The notes under the pieces are model-generated. The model was given only the letters and a program-made list of their open reading frames with translations. It searched no databases and was not told the origin of the DNA. The position numbers were made by a program, and so were the translations under genes. Shown here piece after piece: positions 46,443-58,081 of a DNA stretch of 64,000 bases (positions are counted from its first letter, which is position 1; each line of letters begins with the position of its first letter). This stretch comes from Gemmatimonas groenlandica (lineage in GTDB: Bacteria > Gemmatimonadota > Gemmatimonadetes > Gemmatimonadales > Gemmatimonadaceae): the NCBI RefSeq assembly GCF_013004105.1, contig NZ_CP053085.1, forward strand, positions 4,836,001-4,900,000, in the 5' to 3' direction.

Positions 46443-48248
46443 TTACTTCGCCAGGTCGCGTACCACGCCGCTCAGCAGGCGCACCTTCGCGGTGTCGCTG
46501 GAGGCCAGGGCGTCCTGCGCCAGCGACGCGGCAAGCGCGGAGAACGCGGTGCGGCGCGCGCCACCGGTGGACTGTGCGGCTGCCTCCAGCGCGTTACGGA
46601 TCGCGGTAATGCGCGCCTCCGCCAGCGCCTTGCCACGCTCGAGCTGATCGACGTAGGCGCGGGCAACACTGACATGCGCCGGCCACACGATCTTCGTTTG
46701 CAACTGCGCGTTGAGTTCCTCGCGCGTGACCAGTTTGGCCGCGTCGATCTCGTTCTTCGACAGGAACTCGCTGGGCTGCAGCGTGAAGATGTCGAGTCCG
46801 CGCGCGATCTCGGAGCCGATCAGTTGCCCGTTATACCAATAAACCGACCAGTAGCCCGCCAGCGTCAAGCGCGCCGGGTCGATCGGACCACGGTCGAAGT
46901 ACGCGATCTCCTGCGCTTTCGCCGGGTTGGTGAAGTCGAACACTGAGATGCCACCCTGGTACCAGGCCTGCGCCATGATGTCACGTCCCGGCACCGGGAT
47001 CAGCGAGCCATTGTGCGCCACGCAGTTCTCCGCACTCCCCTGTGCGGCGGGCAGCTTGTAGTAGCCGGCCGGCTTGAGCTTGCGATTCGCGCCCACCGTG
47101 AAGATGGCGTCGGCGCCCCACTCCGGCTTGTCCGTCGCGCGGCAGCGCGCCTGCGTTCCACCGCCCCATTCGTCGGTGAACACCACGGTCTGGCCATCGT
47201 TGCTGAACGTGGCTGAGTGCCAGTACGCGAAGTTCGGGTCGATGACTTCGTCGATGCGCTTCGGGTTGGCCGGATTCGCAATGTCGAGCAGGATACCGTT
47301 GCCCGAGCAGGCGCCGGCGGCGAGTCCGATTTCCGGATACGCCGTGATGTCATGACACTGATCGGTGCGGCCGGTGTTCTGCGTGCCGCGGCCGTGATCC
47401 CCGCCCTTCCACAAGCCCGCCACTTTCCCCGAGGCATCGGCGAAGATGCGCGGCATGTTCACGACCTTTGCCTCCTGCGGTGACGCCAGCGGCACCTTGA
47501 TCACTTCGATACGGAACAGCGAAGTGCTCGTGTCGTCGGGACTGCGCACGCAACCGGCGAGTTCGTTCGGCGAGCGCACGCCACCGGTGCCCTGCACGTA
47601 GATGTACACATTCGCCTTGTCCTTCGGGTCGGTCACGAGTGTGTGCGTGTGCGAACCGCGGCAGGTCTGCACCGCGGCAATCTGCCTCGGCGCATCGAGG
47701 TTCGAGATGTCGAAGATGCGCACGCCCATGAAGCGCGCCGCGCTCACGGTGTCGGACACGCCCTGCGTGCCGCAGTCGAGACGGCCGCTGCCGTCTTCCA
47801 CCGACATGAACAACAAGTTGCCGTACACCGACGGGTCGCCTTGGCCGCCCTGACACACGACCGCGGCGCGACGCTTCGGTGCCTTGGGATCATTGATATC
47901 CCACGCCTGCCAGCCGTGCCAGCCGCCCTGAAAGACGATGTTTTTCTGGAAGGCCAAGTCCGAGTTCGCGTAGCCGAAATCCCCCAGGTCGCGCGGATTG
48001 AACCAGCCCTCGACCTTCGGTGTGCTCGAGACGAGCTCGAGATGTTTGATCGCCTGCTGCGCCTCCTTCGCACCACCTTTGAGCGAAGTGCGCGGGTCGG
48101 CCGTGCGGGCGTCCTGCGCTGCCACTGTGGTGGACAGTACGCCCACAGAGAGCGCGACCGACAGTGCGACCGGTACGAGGTGGGTCGTCGAACGAAAGAG
48201 CGGCACGAAAGCTTTCCTGACGTGAATGGTAGGACGTGGCGAGGTCAT
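46443..48248 (-). CDS. LVIVD-repeat exported beta-propeller protein
   Basis: The 601-residue exported protein has a signal peptide (VPVALSVALSVGVLSTTVAAQ) and propeller blades of the LVIVD type, e.g. GVRIFDISNLDAPRQIAAV, GILLDIANPANPKRI and GISVFDFTNPAKAQEIAYF. Several Cys and His residues (CRGSHTHTLV, GDHGRG) punctuate it. The C-terminal 100 residues are helical. ATG 48248 overlaps the DUF305 stop (ATGA). It ends a five-gene exported-protein operon; no enzymatic motif is visible. Confidence 0.88.
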   Translation of the reverse strand: MTSPRPTIHVRKAFVPLFRSTTHLVPVALSVALSVGVLSTTVAAQDARTADPRTSLKGGAKEAQQAIKHLELVSSTPKVEGWFNPRDLGDFGYANSDLAFQKNIVFQGGWHGWQAWDINDPKAPKRRAAVVCQGGQGDPSVYGNLLFMSVEDGSGRLDCGTQGVSDTVSAARFMGVRIFDISNLDAPRQIAAVQTCRGSHTHTLVTDPKDKANVYIYVQGTGGVRSPNELAGCVRSPDDTSTSLFRIEVIKVPLASPQEAKVVNMPRIFADASGKVAGLWKGGDHGRGTQNTGRTDQCHDITAYPEIGLAAGACSGNGILLDIANPANPKRIDEVIDPNFAYWHSATFSNDGQTVVFTDEWGGGTQARCRATDKPEWGADAIFTVGANRKLKPAGYYKLPAAQGSAENCVAHNGSLIPVPGRDIMAQAWYQGGISVFDFTNPAKAQEIAYFDRGPIDPARLTLAGYWSVYWYNGQLIGSEIARGLDIFTLQPSEFLSKNEIDAAKLVTREELNAQLQTKIVWPAHVSVARAYVDQLERGKALAEARITAIRNALEAAAQSTGGARRTAFSALAASLAQDALASSDTAKVRLLSGVVRDLAK

Positions 48249-48787
48249 TTGGACCATGCTGCCAACAATGTTTGCATGCGGCGGATCTCCGCGCGCTGGT
48301 CGTTGTCGATGTCGTTCACGAACTGAAACAGCATCGGCGACTGCGCCGCACCAGGCACGCGGCGCAGATCGGTCACCATCTGCAGCGCGCCGTCGTGATG
48401 CTGAATCATGAGGCGCAGAAACAGACGGTCGAACGCGGCATCACGGGCGGCGGCCAGTTCGGCCAGTTGCGCTGGCGACAGCATCCCCGGCATCGCGTGC
48501 GCGCCGTGCATCTGGGGCGATGCACCATGGTCGGCGAGCCATCGATGCATGACGGCCAGTTCGTCTCGTTGCGACACCTCGATGCGTTCAGCGAGCAGGA
48601 GCAACTCCACGCGCGAGGTGTGCGTCCGCACCATCGCGGTCATCGTGATCGCCTGCGCGTGGTGCATAATCATGCCTTGCACGAAGGCCATGTCGGCGGC
48701 TGATACCGCTTGCGCCGACACCGCCGGAGCGACGGATGTCAGCGCAAACGCGAGGATCGCGCATGGTGCGACTCGGGAGAGCGTCAT
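48245..48787 (-). CDS. DUF305 family exported protein
   Basis: The 180-residue protein has a signal peptide (ILAFALTSVAPAVSAQ) and a DUF305 fold: FVQGMIMHHAQAITM and MIQHHDGALQM, paired Met/His clusters. Members such as cyanobacterial CopM bind copper in the periplasm. It sits between the Met/His-rich protein and the LVIVD propeller (26-nt gap and ATGA overlap), supporting a metal-related operon. Confidence 0.9.
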   Translation of the reverse strand: MTLSRVAPCAILAFALTSVAPAVSAQAVSAADMAFVQGMIMHHAQAITMTAMVRTHTSRVELLLLAERIEVSQRDELAVMHRWLADHGASPQMHGAHAMPGMLSPAQLAELAAARDAAFDRLFLRLMIQHHDGALQMVTDLRRVPGAAQSPMLFQFVNDIDNDQRAEIRRMQTLLAAWSK

Positions 48788-48813
48788 GGTGACGAAAAGT
48801 ACCCCGATCCTAC

Positions 48814-50430
48814 TCAGTTGCGTCGCCGTGCCGACCAGTGAATGGCCGAGATCCGCCAGCCTTGCGGCGTACGTCGGGCCACGATGAGTTCAGCGCCGGC
48901 CGAGTCGATCGCGCGGTCACGGAAGGTGCCCTTCGTCACCGAGGTGGAGGTGCTGGTGGCGAGGTCGCCTTGCACGAGTACGCGGAGCGGTGCCCTTGTG
49001 CTCTTGATCGCCTTCGCGAGCGCGATGTCGGCAGGCAGATGATGTGCGCGGTAGTCCGCCACCGTTTCCACCGAGCCGCTTTCCAGAATCTCGGCGTCCT
49101 TAGTGAGGAGACTGATCGCCGCAACGCTGTCGCCCCGTTCGAGCGCATCGTGGAAGCGGTGTACCAGCGCGGCCACGTCGGCGCTGTCGTTGGCCGCAGC
49201 TGTCGTTGAAGGCATGGCGGCAGGCATGGCGGCAGGCATGGCGGCAGGCATGGCGGCAGGCATGGCCATCGACGCCATGTCGTGCCCCGCGTGCTCGCCA
49301 CCGGAAGCGGCACCGGCGGCCGCTGACCCGTACGAGAAGCCTTTCATGGCGCCGGTCTCCCAGTCATGCGTCATGACAGCGCCGTAGGTCACCGAAGGCG
49401 TCGGCAGCACGGGCAGGAAGCCCACCGATGAGCCGCCCATGTTCTCGATGCCCATGTGCTTCGACATGGCAAGCCACGCGGCGACGGGCATCACGTACGA
49501 CGTGTCGTCGCGATACAGCCGCGCCGCTCGCATGATCTCGGCGCGCTTCGCGTTGCGCGGCACGGCTTCGTTGCTCAGGATGTCCGACACGACATCATGC
49601 ATCGAATGCAGATTGTCGAAGATGATGGCGGCTTCCGGGAATCGCGTGGCGAACGCGGGTGCCACAGCGGCCGTCATCGGCATCTGGTACGGCAGTGCGG
49701 TCGGCGCACCGTCCACCATCTGCCAGAAGCGGGCAACCGTGGCGCGCACGCCGGCCTGTTTCGCGGCGGTGGTCTTGCCGACGATCAGCGGCTCGTAGAG
49801 TCCGACCTGCAGCCAGTGATAGCCCCAGATAAGCCCATTGAACTTCGGATAGCGTTTGCGGAACGCGAGCGAGTACGACTGCTCCTGCATCAACGCCATC
49901 GTCTTGGGCTTCGAGCTGAATGCCAGGTCGGGGCGGCTCTTGTAGTACGCGATGAGCCGCTGCGCTTCTCGATCACGCTGGGCATCGCTCAGGCGCTCGT
50001 CGGCGAGCACGTCGTACAGCTGCCGGTGCAACAGATGCGCCCAGTCGAACATCACCTTCGCTTCGGGCGCGAGCTGCGCATACTTGGGCTCGATCGCGGC
50101 CTCTTCGAGCGGCACGCGCGGTGGCTTCACCAGCACGGTCTTGGTGAGATAGTCGAACTCCTTTTCTTCGAGCCGAGCGACGGGCGCGTTGGGCTTCGTC
50201 CACAGCGTTTCGTACAGAATTGCGTGGCCGTAATCGAAGGCATTGAACAGCCGGTCGGCCGATGCGTACTGATTGCGGAACGACCAGTTGTGCGAGGCCT
50301 GCAGGTAGAACTGTTCGTACGTGGTGGTCCACTGGGCCAGCGCCGTGCGTGGCGTGGCGAGCGACGTCAGCGCGAGCGCGGTGACGACAATGCCGTGAAC
50401 CAGGGCGCGATGAGAGCGGAGTAAATTCAT
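48814..50430 (-). CDS. exported protein, unknown N-terminal domain plus Met/His segment plus NTF2-like domain
   Basis: The 538-residue protein has a signal peptide (IVVTALALTSLATPRTALAQ), then about 330 residues of an unrecognised helical domain (FNAFDYGHAILYETLW, MFDWAHLLHRQLYDVL). A low-complexity segment near residues 379-405 holds GEHAGHDMASMAM and four PAAM units (12-bp DNA repeats). The C-terminal 110 residues resemble a SnoaL/NTF2-like (DUF4440) fold (VHRFHDALERGDSVAAISLL...). Met/His clusters suggest metal binding. It lies 15 nt after the barrel gene. Confidence 0.82.
   Translation of the reverse strand: MNLLRSHRALVHGIVVTALALTSLATPRTALAQWTTTYEQFYLQASHNWSFRNQYASADRLFNAFDYGHAILYETLWTKPNAPVARLEEKEFDYLTKTVLVKPPRVPLEEAAIEPKYAQLAPEAKVMFDWAHLLHRQLYDVLADERLSDAQRDREAQRLIAYYKSRPDLAFSSKPKTMALMQEQSYSLAFRKRYPKFNGLIWGYHWLQVGLYEPLIVGKTTAAKQAGVRATVARFWQMVDGAPTALPYQMPMTAAVAPAFATRFPEAAIIFDNLHSMHDVVSDILSNEAVPRNAKRAEIMRAARLYRDDTSYVMPVAAWLAMSKHMGIENMGGSSVGFLPVLPTPSVTYGAVMTHDWETGAMKGFSYGSAAAGAASGGEHAGHDMASMAMPAAMPAAMPAAMPAAMPSTTAAANDSADVAALVHRFHDALERGDSVAAISLLTKDAEILESGSVETVADYRAHHLPADIALAKAIKSTRAPLRVLVQGDLATSTSTSVTKGTFRDRAIDSAGAELIVARRTPQGWRISAIHWSARRRN
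49211..49258. repeat. 12-bp tandem repeat, four copies
   Basis: GGCATGGCGGCA occurs in four identical copies, with a partial fifth, encoding PAAM units in the Met-rich segment of the minus-strand gene. The exactness suggests length variation by slippage. Confidence 0.95.
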
Positions 50431-50445
50431 GAGATCGGCTCGTGG

Positions 50446-51291
50446 TTAGCGACGGGGAGACCAGGGCAGTCCAAGCGACACGGCAGCACCGGCGGTGAGA
50501 AACCAACCGGCGTCCGCCCTCGACAGTCGGTAACCACCACCGCCATCGACGGCGAGTCGTGGACTGACTTGATAGCGCGCGCCACCGGCCACGTCCCACG
50601 CTTGTGTTTCGGTCGCATCGAGAGGTTGCGACGTCACGACTTCGGCGGTGAGTAGGAGCGAACGCAACGGCAGCGTCCGATCCACCGCGACACCGACCAG
50701 CCATCGCGAGAGTTCGGCCGACGCCGTCGTTCCGCTTCCGGCAGGCGCGATGCTCGGCGCATCGCCGATCGTCACCTGACCGTTCAGGTGAAAGCGCGCC
50801 CACGGAAAGGTCTTGGTGGCGATGGCCTTGAACGATGGATATGCCTTGTCGGGCGCCATCGCGCCGACCGGGAGCAGCACGTCGGCCACGACCGCGAGCG
50901 CCGGAAGTCGCGTCTCGGTGTTCAGGTTGTACAGCACCGAGGCGTCGATGCCGCCGAGTGCGGTACGACGCGTGCCGGCCACGCCTTCCACATGCGCGAT
51001 CGGAAATCCGATCTCCACTTGGGTGCGCGGGAAGAGGCCGACGGCGAACTCGGGTTCAATGCCCCAGCGGTAGCTGCCGCCGCGGGCACGCTCGAGACGA
51101 AACGGCGCCAGTTGCAGCTCGACCGCGCGCCGTTCGATGGCATAGGCGTCTTCAATGCGGACAGGGCGTCCGGCATCGGTGTTGTAGTAGTCGGTTTGCG
51201 CCGAGAGGGTCGCCAGCGGGGCCGACAGGGCCGTGACAACTACAAGCAACCCTGCGACGCCGAAGCGTGGGGCGTTCAAAAAGGGATTCAT
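50446..51291 (-). CDS. outer-membrane beta-barrel protein (MetA-pathway/transporter-like)
   Basis: The 281-residue exported protein has a signal peptide (LLVVVTALSAPLATLSAQ) and a mature part of alternating hydrophobic beta-strands (FAVGLFPRTQVEIGFPIAHV, LAVVADVLLPVGA, ARYQVSPRLAVDGGGGYRL), ending in aromatic-poor LGLPWSPRR. It resembles outer-membrane transport proteins of the Phenol_MetA_deg group. It is second in the putative copper operon, 142 nt from the first gene and 15 nt from the next. Confidence 0.8.
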   Translation of the reverse strand: MNPFLNAPRFGVAGLLVVVTALSAPLATLSAQTDYYNTDAGRPVRIEDAYAIERRAVELQLAPFRLERARGGSYRWGIEPEFAVGLFPRTQVEIGFPIAHVEGVAGTRRTALGGIDASVLYNLNTETRLPALAVVADVLLPVGAMAPDKAYPSFKAIATKTFPWARFHLNGQVTIGDAPSIAPAGSGTTASAELSRWLVGVAVDRTLPLRSLLLTAEVVTSQPLDATETQAWDVAGGARYQVSPRLAVDGGGGYRLSRADAGWFLTAGAAVSLGLPWSPRR

Positions 51292-51433
51292 GAGCAGGAC
51301 AGGTGCGAGCGGTGCGCTTCTGCGCAGCGCAACGGATAGCAGATGCGGGGCGTCTCGCGCAGAGGGCGCGGACGTGCATCGGCAGCGATGGCGTTGAGAC
51401 GGCTCGATCCGGCATGACCGGAGAGCGGGGTGC

Positions 51434-51853
51434 TCAGCCTCGCGGCGGTGGGGGCTCGGGGGCGATGTCGAGCGAGACCGGCCAATCGGTCACGTGCACG
51501 GGGCGGTGTACATCGACCGCGACATCGACGGTGTTCACGGCGACGGCGGCACTCATAACACCGACCACGGTGCAGGCCATGGCCATCGGGCAGGCGGCTG
51601 GCGCGTGCGAATGCTGCACCGGCACCGGCTGTGGGGCCGGGTCGGCCGCGTGCTCGTTGGCGACCGGTGCGGCGGAAGATGCCTCGCTCACCGCTGACAC
51701 ATGATGCCGATGCAGATCGGCCGGCGCCGCGACGCCAACGGTCTTTTTGGAGACGACAGCGCGTTCACAGTCTGCGCCCGTTGCAGGGAGCACTCCCTGC
51801 AACAGCTGCACGCCAAAGAGCGCGAGGGCGGCGATGCGTCGGCGGACGTCCAT
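51434..51853 (-). CDS. small exported His/Cys/Met-rich protein
   Basis: The 139-residue protein has a signal peptide (IAALALFGVQLLQGVLPATG) and metal-ligand-rich stretches DLHRHHVSA and VQHSHAPAACPMAMAC. It is not assigned to a named family. It is the first gene behind a CsoR-like operator (51874-51890), with a GGA stretch before its ATG. The ligand pattern (Cys-x-Met-x-Met-x-Cys, His clusters) suits soft metals such as copper. Confidence 0.72.
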   Translation of the reverse strand: MDVRRRIAALALFGVQLLQGVLPATGADCERAVVSKKTVGVAAPADLHRHHVSAVSEASSAAPVANEHAADPAPQPVPVQHSHAPAACPMAMACTVVGVMSAAVAVNTVDVAVDVHRPVHVTDWPVSLDIAPEPPPPRG

Positions 51854-51873
51854 AGCGTGAATCCTAATGACTT

Positions 51874-51890
51874 ATGCCCTGGAGGGGTAT
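51874..51890. promoter_or_regulatory. CsoR-like operator
   Basis: ATGCCC-TGGAG-GGGTAT is a near-palindrome of the CsoR/FrmR-family type (ATACCC-N5-GGGTAT); just one position departs from symmetry, and the T/A pair outside extends it to 7-5-7. It lies 21-37 nt upstream of ATG 51853, between the kdpE stop and the exported-protein operon. Confidence 0.6.
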
Positions 51891-51912
51891 AGGTGCCATC
51901 GCGGCGGACGCC

Positions 51913-56403: not shown

Positions 56404-56471
56404 GAAGACAGCGCGCCGTGCGGCGTTGCCTTGATTCCGTCACCGTCAATGTCCGCAGGGAGGCACATCGC

Positions 56472-57416
56472 ATGGGTGTCAGCAGCCGCGACATGTTCGG
56501 CGCACCGGCCGATTCGAACACCGGCGCCGATCGGGCACTGCTCGGCAGCTATGGCCGTCCGCCGGCCGGCTATCGATTGCCGGCCGCCACGCGCCTCGGC
56601 ACGGTCGAACTGCAGGTCAGCAACCTCGCGCGATCCCTCGAGTACTATCAGCTGCTGCTCGGTCTGGCCGTTGTCGCGCAGGACGAGGCCACCGCGTCGC
56701 TGGCTGGCGTGGGCGCCACCGAACCGATCGTGATCCTGCGCGAAGTCCCCGGCACGCGTCCGGTGGCACCCGGATCTCGGCTCGGGCTCTATCATTTTGC
56801 GATCCTGCTCCCTGATCGGCCGGCGATGGGCCGTTTCATTACGCACCTGTCGGAGATCGGCGCGCGCGCGGGCTCCAGCGATCACCTGGTCAGCGAAGCG
56901 TTGTATCTGCAGGACCCCGACGGTCTCGGCATCGAGGTGTACGTGGACCGTCCTCGCGACCGGTGGCGCCGCGTCGACCAGGAACTCATGATGGCAACCG
57001 ATCCGCTTGATATGGCCGACCTCGTGCGCGTGGCGAATGGAGCGCCATGGACCGGCATGCCGAGCGACACGGTCATGGGACATGTGCACTTGCACGTCGG
57101 CGATCTCGATGCGGCCGACGCGTTCTATTCGGAAGGGCTCGGCTTCGATCGCATGGTCTGGCGCTATCCGGGTGCCCTGTTTCTCGGCGCTGGCGGCTAC
57201 CACCACCATCTCGGCACCAACACCTGGGCGGGCGGTGCACTTCCCCCGCGCACGCAGGACGCCAAGCTGACGGCATGGACGATTGTCCTGCCGTCGGCGA
57301 ACGACGTGGCGGCGTTGCGCGCGAATCTGGTCGCACGCGGTATCGCCGTCACCGACGAACCAGCGGGTATCCTGTTCGCCGATCCGTGGGGCACGCCGGT
57401 GCGGGTGCGCACGTAG
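56472..57416 (+). CDS. VOC-family (extradiol dioxygenase-like) protein
   Basis: The 314-residue protein has two VOC modules: first LGTVELQVSNLARSLEYYQLL with GLYHFAILLP and a VYVDRP end; second MGHVHLHVGDLDAADAFYSEGLG with HHHLGTNTWAG. The His and Glu ligands expected for a catechol 2,3-dioxygenase are largely present (H in GLYHF, H in GHVHL, E in GIEVYVD). ATG 56472 is preferred, with GGGAGG upstream. It has its own promoter. Confidence 0.88.
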   Translation: MGVSSRDMFGAPADSNTGADRALLGSYGRPPAGYRLPAATRLGTVELQVSNLARSLEYYQLLLGLAVVAQDEATASLAGVGATEPIVILREVPGTRPVAPGSRLGLYHFAILLPDRPAMGRFITHLSEIGARAGSSDHLVSEALYLQDPDGLGIEVYVDRPRDRWRRVDQELMMATDPLDMADLVRVANGAPWTGMPSDTVMGHVHLHVGDLDAADAFYSEGLGFDRMVWRYPGALFLGAGGYHHHLGTNTWAGGALPPRTQDAKLTAWTIVLPSANDVAALRANLVARGIAVTDEPAGILFADPWGTPVRVRT

Positions 57417-57457
57417 CCCACGCGGGTACACCACGCGCACTCGGCACGTCCGGCGGG

Positions 57458-58081
57458 CTACGCCGGCGGGCGCTCCGCTGCGAAGAGATCGATTTGCGGC
57501 AGCTGCGTCGGTAGGCCGAGCTGCCCCACGGCGTCGAGCGTCCATCGCTCGCGTGCCGACGCGTCGAGGCGATGCACGGGGACGGCGAAGTCGTCGATGA
57601 GATCATCGATGATGCCATCGATCTCGTGCTGAAAGCCAACACTGACCGCGCGCTTGCCATCGAAAGTCGGCGCACCAAGCACCGGCACCTTGAAGAGCGC
57701 GTGATAGCCGCGCACCCATTCGCGGACGAGCGGATCGAGTTCCGGTCGACGGCCCACACGGGCCACGAGATACGCGTAGTTATCGAGTACTGACCGGTCG
57801 CAGATCACCACTTCGTAATCGGCTGCCGCTTCGATCTCCTCGGCGATCTGCGTGTGCAGAATCCATCGCTGCGCATCGAGCGTGGTGCCTTCATTGATCG
57901 GCAATGGACAGCGCCGCGCGACTTCCTTGACGATGTCGACGCCCAGGTCGAGGCGCTTGAGCTGCGCGGCGAGGTCGAAGCAGAGGGTCGTCTTGCCGAC
58001 GCCGTGTGTGCCCACGAACGCGACCTTCAGTCGATGACGCCCGAAGGCGTCGAGTGGCAGAAGTTCGGAAACAGCGGTCAT
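57458..58081 (-). CDS. AAA/NadR-type ATPase (AAA_28-like)
   Basis: The 207-residue protein has a P-loop FVGTHGVGKTT (about 21-31), a YEVVICDRSVLDNYAYL strand as Walker B, and a helical rest. It resembles the AAA_28 group of small NTPases or kinases, including nicotinamide-mononucleotide-related enzymes. The substrate is not known. It lies 30 nt after the VapBC-type module on the same strand. Confidence 0.85.
   Translation of the reverse strand: MTAVSELLPLDAFGRHRLKVAFVGTHGVGKTTLCFDLAAQLKRLDLGVDIVKEVARRCPLPINEGTTLDAQRWILHTQIAEEIEAAADYEVVICDRSVLDNYAYLVARVGRRPELDPLVREWVRGYHALFKVPVLGAPTFDGKRAVSVGFQHEIDGIIDDLIDDFAVPVHRLDASARERWTLDAVGQLGLPTQLPQIDLFAAERPPA

Follow-up and report, generated by a model that had tools for sequence, protein, structure and literature searches.

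CsoR, RcnR, FrmR and CstR are regulators of one family (PF02583). The operators of CsoR are G-tract pseudopalindromes with TAC/GTA repeats, with a type 2 consensus that reads ATATACCCCTNAGGGGTATAT as printed in the text of the source (PMC3902906). Further out in the cell, the DUF305 protein CopM binds copper and lowers the copper of the cell in Synechocystis, where it is partly extracellular (PMC4335983). How copper passes out of the periplasm and through the outer membrane of Gram negative bacteria is poorly understood, even for PcoB, to which one study assigned uptake and another efflux. We have analyzed a stretch of 64,000 nucleotides (the window), part of the 5.18 Mb one-contig genome of Gemmatimonas groenlandica, whose nearest matches are Gemmatimonas-type metagenome genomes. 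It contains an operon of five genes, P1 to P5, that to judge from sequence comparison is quite probably the envelope arm of the CsoR regulon of this organism. Our literature search found nothing joining Gemmatimonas with copper resistance and CsoR.

The five genes and their products

The first-pass annotation had described five consecutive minus-strand genes for exported proteins. All the ORFs were in place between 46443 and 51853, and by eye the N-termini of all five products look like signal peptides. The first gene, P1 (51434-51853, minus strand, 139 aa), codes for a small exported protein with His, Cys and Met, including three invariant Cys, a CPMAMAC motif and a C-terminal PEPPPPR. No family was found for it in Pfam or NCBIfam. 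CopL, CzcI and DUF2946 were considered and rejected, the matches being isolated and weak; the cut-off of the NCBIfam CopL_fam model was not reached, with one of 15 P1 members matching at E 0.22.

P2 (50446-51291, minus strand, 281 aa) had been called an outer-membrane barrel, and the predicted structure agrees. The AF2 model (pLDDT 86.5) is a 12-stranded outer-membrane beta-barrel channel, with FapF (Z 24) and the COG4313 channel 4rl8 (Z 22) as fold matches in VIA, at an rmsd of 2.2-2.5 over ~220 residues. In the fold alignment P2 and FapF are only 15% identical in sequence. PcoB (7pge) appeared lower in the list (Foldseek E 1e-4) and as a fold match only; Pfam and NCBIfam scans found no CopB/PcoB sequence family in P2. 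Phenol_MetA_deg, which we take to be the Pfam family of FapF/COG4313-type channels, was detected in 14 of 45 P2 members, with the P2 of the window below the cut-off. Our prediction for P2 is a 12-strand outer-membrane channel of the FapF/COG4313 type.

P3 (48814-50430, minus strand, 538 aa) contains the GEHAGHDMASMAM motif and is made of three parts on that strand: an N-terminal domain (residues 1-372, 49315-50430) modelled as all-helical with an AF2 pLDDT of 93.3, a Met/His-rich linker that includes GGEHAGHDMASMAMPAAMPAAMPAAM (49213-49314), and a C-terminal DUF4440 domain with a YRAHHLPAD motif (48814-49212, Pfam E 6e-7). His 69, 132, 135, 205, 275 and 278 are near-invariant, each being conserved in at least 47 of the 48 sequences, and several Asp and Met are conserved with them. 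The N-terminal domain belongs to no Pfam family and gave no match to the PDB by sequence, while the fold searches returned unrelated helical proteins in all cases (best E 0.61 in Foldseek, best Z 4.3 in VIA). The predicted domain is then one without a known fold match, which does not by itself prove a new fold. No Cu-oxidase (cupredoxin) domain was found in P3. Met/His-rich tails, varying in sequence and commonly of the MDHSKM/HAGH type, are present in most but not all P3 orthologs.

The DUF4440 subfamily with the motif YRxHHLxxD is fused to P3 in Gemmatimonas, and a stand-alone DUF4440 gene is found within a few kb of P3 in four of the fetched loci (L013, L065, L073 and L075). In L073 the P3 ORF (631 aa) appears by eye to be fused to a membrane-spanning domain after the Met/His-rich tail.

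The last two genes had been read as a DUF305 protein and an LVIVD propeller. P4 (48245-48787, minus strand, 180 aa) matches DUF305 in Pfam with E 1.4e-36 (126 bits for a cut-off of 27) and CopM in the PDB (5fej, E 4e-11), and its match to the NCBIfam CopM model (E 3e-19, 68.7 bits) lies below the 90-bit cut-off. P5 (46443-48257, minus strand, 604 aa) matches the choice-of-anchor-B model TIGR04312 of NCBIfam below its cut-off (E 1e-13, 51 bits for a cut-off of 100) and gave no match to the PDB by sequence. We describe P5 as a putative propeller protein of the LVIVD/choice-of-anchor-B kind. Of the 20 loci closest in P5 (the window among them), 18 have a P4 homolog directly upstream. The P5 family is widespread, with matches in 167 of 200 Gemmatimonadota genomes and seven in the genome studied here. 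The literature search found nothing joining DUF305 with an LVIVD propeller.

The complete order P1-P5 occurs in the window and, as a search of relatives revealed, in three other loci (L008, L046 and L047). The five genes are two modules, P1-P2-P3 and P4-P5, that are also found apart. We have discarded the idea of a single ancient unit because P1-P3 and P4-P5 occur separately.

Upstream of the operon, between 51913 and 56344, there are genes for a KdpE-like response regulator, a divergent DUF4118 (KdpD-like) kinase and a potassium transporter that by eye we call Kup-like. The regulator gene is located 59 nt upstream of the P1 operon and in the same direction. This set sits between the gene of cluster c7 and the copper operon, and relatives such as L007, L008 and L047 do not have it there. 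Two genes, of clusters c16 and c7, are neighbours in the window (56418-58081), and in the same three loci csoR-copA-copZ is found between them. This suggests that in the lineage of the window the copper ATPase cassette has gone from the place between c16 and c7, and that the potassium-transporter cluster now lies between c7 and P1.

The operator before P1

A pseudopalindrome had been noticed 21-37 nt before the first start codon, and the distance is exact: the 17 bp core ATACCCCTCCAGGGCAT occupies 51874-51890 on the minus strand (TATACCCCTCCAGGGCATA with its flanks, 51873-51891), ahead of the P1 ATG at 51853. Its form agrees with the published CsoR operators. Just downstream of it there is, by eye, a putative -10 element, TAGGAT (51861-51866, minus strand), 7 nt before the ATG, a spacing of the leaderless type. 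A TANNNT element of this kind is found 6-7 nt ahead of the P1 ATG in the window, L002, L003, L006-L009, L012, L046 and L047, as expected if the P1 transcript were leaderless.

The assignment to the CsoR type was borne out by an independent matrix. In order to avoid circularity, the matrix was trained on sites of relatives, with 17 positions and 14 sites, all before copZ except one before csoR (L074). The operator of the window scored 14.7, and the runner-up in the 64 kb reached 6.8. A third-order Markov simulation gave ~0.25 chance sites per Mb at that score, or ~2e-5 per given 100 bp. Since the matrix sites had been picked by eye from promoters, the training scores are optimistic and the fairer test is the count in held-out loci (58 loci, 834 kb), where 16 of the 17 matches scoring at least 12.5 lay before copZ, copA, csoR or the P1 operon; some of these loci are close relatives of one another, and we already knew the window site when building the matrix. 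A 19-base pattern of the operator has a single exact match in the 5.18 Mb genome, a pattern derived from the site itself. With 3 mismatches allowed it was counted less often than the control, and for this reason we have dropped it as evidence of an excess.

That the operator would be kept in orthologous loci was confirmed only in part. The nearest orthologs, all of the same genus (L002/L152, L003/L153, L012/L155 and L006/L156), lack it before P1, as do the other same-genus copies examined, so the site was either gained in the lineage of the window or lost by its sisters. Outside the genus, L061, L063 and L064 have the operator directly before a P1 homolog with csoR not nearby, just as in the window.

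CsoR and copper genes in the same genome

The genome search for csoR gave one gene, at 2.5116 Mb, that passes the Pfam cut-off (PF02583, E 1.7e-27). By eye its product has the copper-ligand pattern Cys...His-xxx-Cys (RYC..., HLKHC) together with RLRR, and its closest named model is RicR, below the cut-off. A copZ-copA pair is located at 4.26 Mb, and the ATPase passes the copper-ATPase model TIGR01511. No multicopper oxidase of the PcoA/CopA type (TIGR01480) was over the cut-off in the genome, which gave weak matches only to other oxidases.

The exact sequence ATAGGGGNNNGGGGTAT is present only twice in the genome, before csoR and before copZ, with matrix scores of 15.1 and 13.1, to be compared with 14.7 for the P1 operator. 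The latter is the third site of the genome and has a palindromic variant of the left half, ATGCCCT (other strand) instead of the ATAGGGG of the other two. Both variants of the left half are found before one copZ in L047, and in L049, L081 and L176-L178 two differing sites precede copZ or copA. The genome studied here carries a second P2-P3 pair (L045:7347-9308, ~4.278-4.280 Mb), with no DUF4440 and with a short tail only. No operator was found before this paralogous pair.

Linkage to copper genes in relatives

Out of 200 Gemmatimonadota genomes drawn from across the phylum, 85 had a match to P3, some of them to the DUF4440 domain only. Among the fetched loci, P2 is almost always directly upstream of P3. 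In at least seven of them (L048, L049, L050, L051, L060, L065 and L081) a single same-strand series is formed by copZ-copA-csoR-(P1)-P2-P3, with operator sites at the head; copA was not found in L048, and L081 gave no copZ match. Same-strand series with P2-P3 after copZ-copA-csoR, or after csoR and part of that set, also appear in L166 and L168 (the latter ends inside P2), and L071 has csoR-P2-P3. Besides, the copper genes are divergent neighbours of the operon in L007, L008, L009, L047 and L074. The P4-P5 module has its own link: in L176-L178, from three genomes of the same genus with no P2-P3, it adjoins copZ-copA-csoR.

Overall, 10 of 40 loci (L045-L084) included csoR in the stretch fetched, where random placement would give ~0.2, a rough estimate from counts that takes csoR as about one per ~4 Mb genome and involves no fitted test. 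In many distant P2-P3 loci there was no csoR within ~10 kb. Other P2-P3 copies are near genes for CopC/CopD, CusA/CusB or a copper-resistance multicopper oxidase.

A pair formed by a BlaI-type repressor and an M56 peptidase adjoins P2-P3 in L013 (1664-3189), L053, L066 and L083; in L013 CopC-CopD are also near, and the repressor with its peptidase is possibly another copper-linked regulator.

P2 and P3 are also neighbouring genes on a Methylobacterium plasmid, so the pair is not confined to one phylum. The plasmid is the mobilizable NZ_CP155007 of Methylobacterium fujisawaense (L110:11893-14248), where P3-P2 are annotated as 'hypothetical proteins' and lie upstream of genes for subunits of an NADH-quinone oxidoreductase (complex I-like).

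A model for the operon and its alternatives

The copper reading of the operon appears well supported by comparison, because of the specificity of the operator and the linkage to csoR and copZ-copA in relatives. Of the first-pass proposal of a copper system, the copper part gained from the operator, the csoR gene and the repeated linkage to copper genes; the idea of a separate system without an ATPase did not survive, as copZ-copA is elsewhere in the genome behind its own CsoR-type operator. The operon would be an accessory to CsoR/CopZA and not a self-sufficient system.

We propose that CsoR (2.51 Mb) would repress three scattered promoters, its own, that of copZ-copA (4.26 Mb) and that of P1-P5, and that binding of Cu(I) to CsoR would release all three. 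CopZ and CopA would move cytoplasmic copper into the periplasm, where P1-P5 would handle it. There, P1 would act as a small His/Cys/Met copper-binding peptide, P3 may bind copper through its conserved His cluster and its flexible Met/His tail, and P2 would provide the outer-membrane channel for the exit of copper or of a copper carrier. The CopM-like P4 and its partner propeller P5 may buffer copper in the periplasm or outside the cell. From sequences and predicted structures we infer that CsoR binds the site, that copper induces the operon, that metal is bound, which way transport runs and what each protein does.

The direction of transport through P2 cannot be told from the fold alone, and P2 could import copper so that P3 and P4 are loaded to supply cuproenzymes of the periplasm, in which case CsoR would do no more than adjust the level. 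PcoB, likewise a 12-strand barrel, has been reported to aid copper uptake (PMC9210255), although a homolog from Caulobacter has been described in copper efflux (PMC12509749). However, genes behind a CsoR operator are expected to be expressed when copper is in excess, and in relatives P2-P3 shares an operon with an export ATPase, so we consider acquisition unlikely. Another role for P2 would be the export of P1 (or P3), which once secreted would serve as a copper-binding metallophore, in the way that FapF exports amyloid subunits. FapF, a polypeptide transporter, is its best structural match, P1 is small, exported and rich in His and Cys, and CopM is found in part outside the cell. Nevertheless, the COG4313 channel is nearly as good a match, there are P2-P3 loci with no detected P1 (for example L059 and L068), and the signal peptide that P1 has by eye leads only to the periplasm. 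All this makes a metallophore rather improbable.

Two other explanations would take the operon away from copper or from CsoR. The PF02583 family also includes RcnR, FrmR and CstR, and the regulator and its operator might serve persulfide, formaldehyde or Ni/Co. Yet the CsoR of this genome has the Cys-His-Cys pattern and RicR as its closest named model (below the cut-off), and another of the operators controls copZ-copA, whose ATPase passes the copper model, so that a different ligand seems scarcely likely. The pseudopalindrome might instead be accidental and the operon read through from the KdpE-like gene, which has the same direction; the absence of the site in the nearest orthologs would fit. 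Against this, such a score has a chance of ~2e-5 per given 100 bp, the site is placed beside a -10-like element and the operator occurs independently before P1 outside the genus, which makes an accident very unlikely. The envelope arm of a CsoR regulon is the reading that we keep.

Within such an arm, P2 and P3 appear to represent a mode of envelope copper handling that has gone unrecognised. It is conceivable, although we would put it at somewhat less than an even chance, that the N-terminal domain of P3 has a fold not described before and binds copper, that this domain and the FapF-like P2 work as a pair to export copper at the outer membrane, in the place of PcoA-PcoB and with no multicopper oxidase, and that this pair has spread through Gemmatimonadota and onto Methylobacterium plasmids. 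A conserved channel and a soluble partner tied to CsoR and a copper ATPase, with no oxidase domain, offer a second and independent test case for the passage of copper across the outer membrane. Candidate functions are also offered for families without a Pfam name (P1 and the N-terminal domain of P3) and for the DUF305-propeller pair.

Comparison with known systems

A close parallel is the CsoR-CopZ-CopA copper export regulon known from Streptomyces and others. The operator is of the same type, with a 17-bp core, G tracts and ATA...TAT ends, csoR and copZ-copA are present, and in relatives P2-P3 is part of that operon. The differences are that the operon described here adds an exported channel, a His/Met protein, a peptide, a DUF305 protein and a propeller, and that its three parts lie apart from one another in the genome studied here.

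On paper there is also a likeness to the envelope copper resistance of pcoAB/copAB (copLAB), in the 12-strand barrel of the outer membrane with its exported Met/His-rich soluble partner, near which CopC/CopD are found in other genomes, and in the small His/Cys protein at the head. However, the soluble partner P3 is a predicted helical domain with no fold match instead of a multicopper oxidase, the predicted P2 barrel is closer to FapF/COG4313, the regulator would be CsoR and not a two-component system, and no match to the CopL model was obtained for the head peptide P1. P4 belongs to DUF305 and is homologous to CopM (5fej), but it falls below the NCBIfam CopM cut-off and is paired with a propeller gene. 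Finally, P2 shares the predicted fold of the FapF/COG4313 channels (Z 22-24), whereas its context is one of copper genes and its identity to FapF is 15%.
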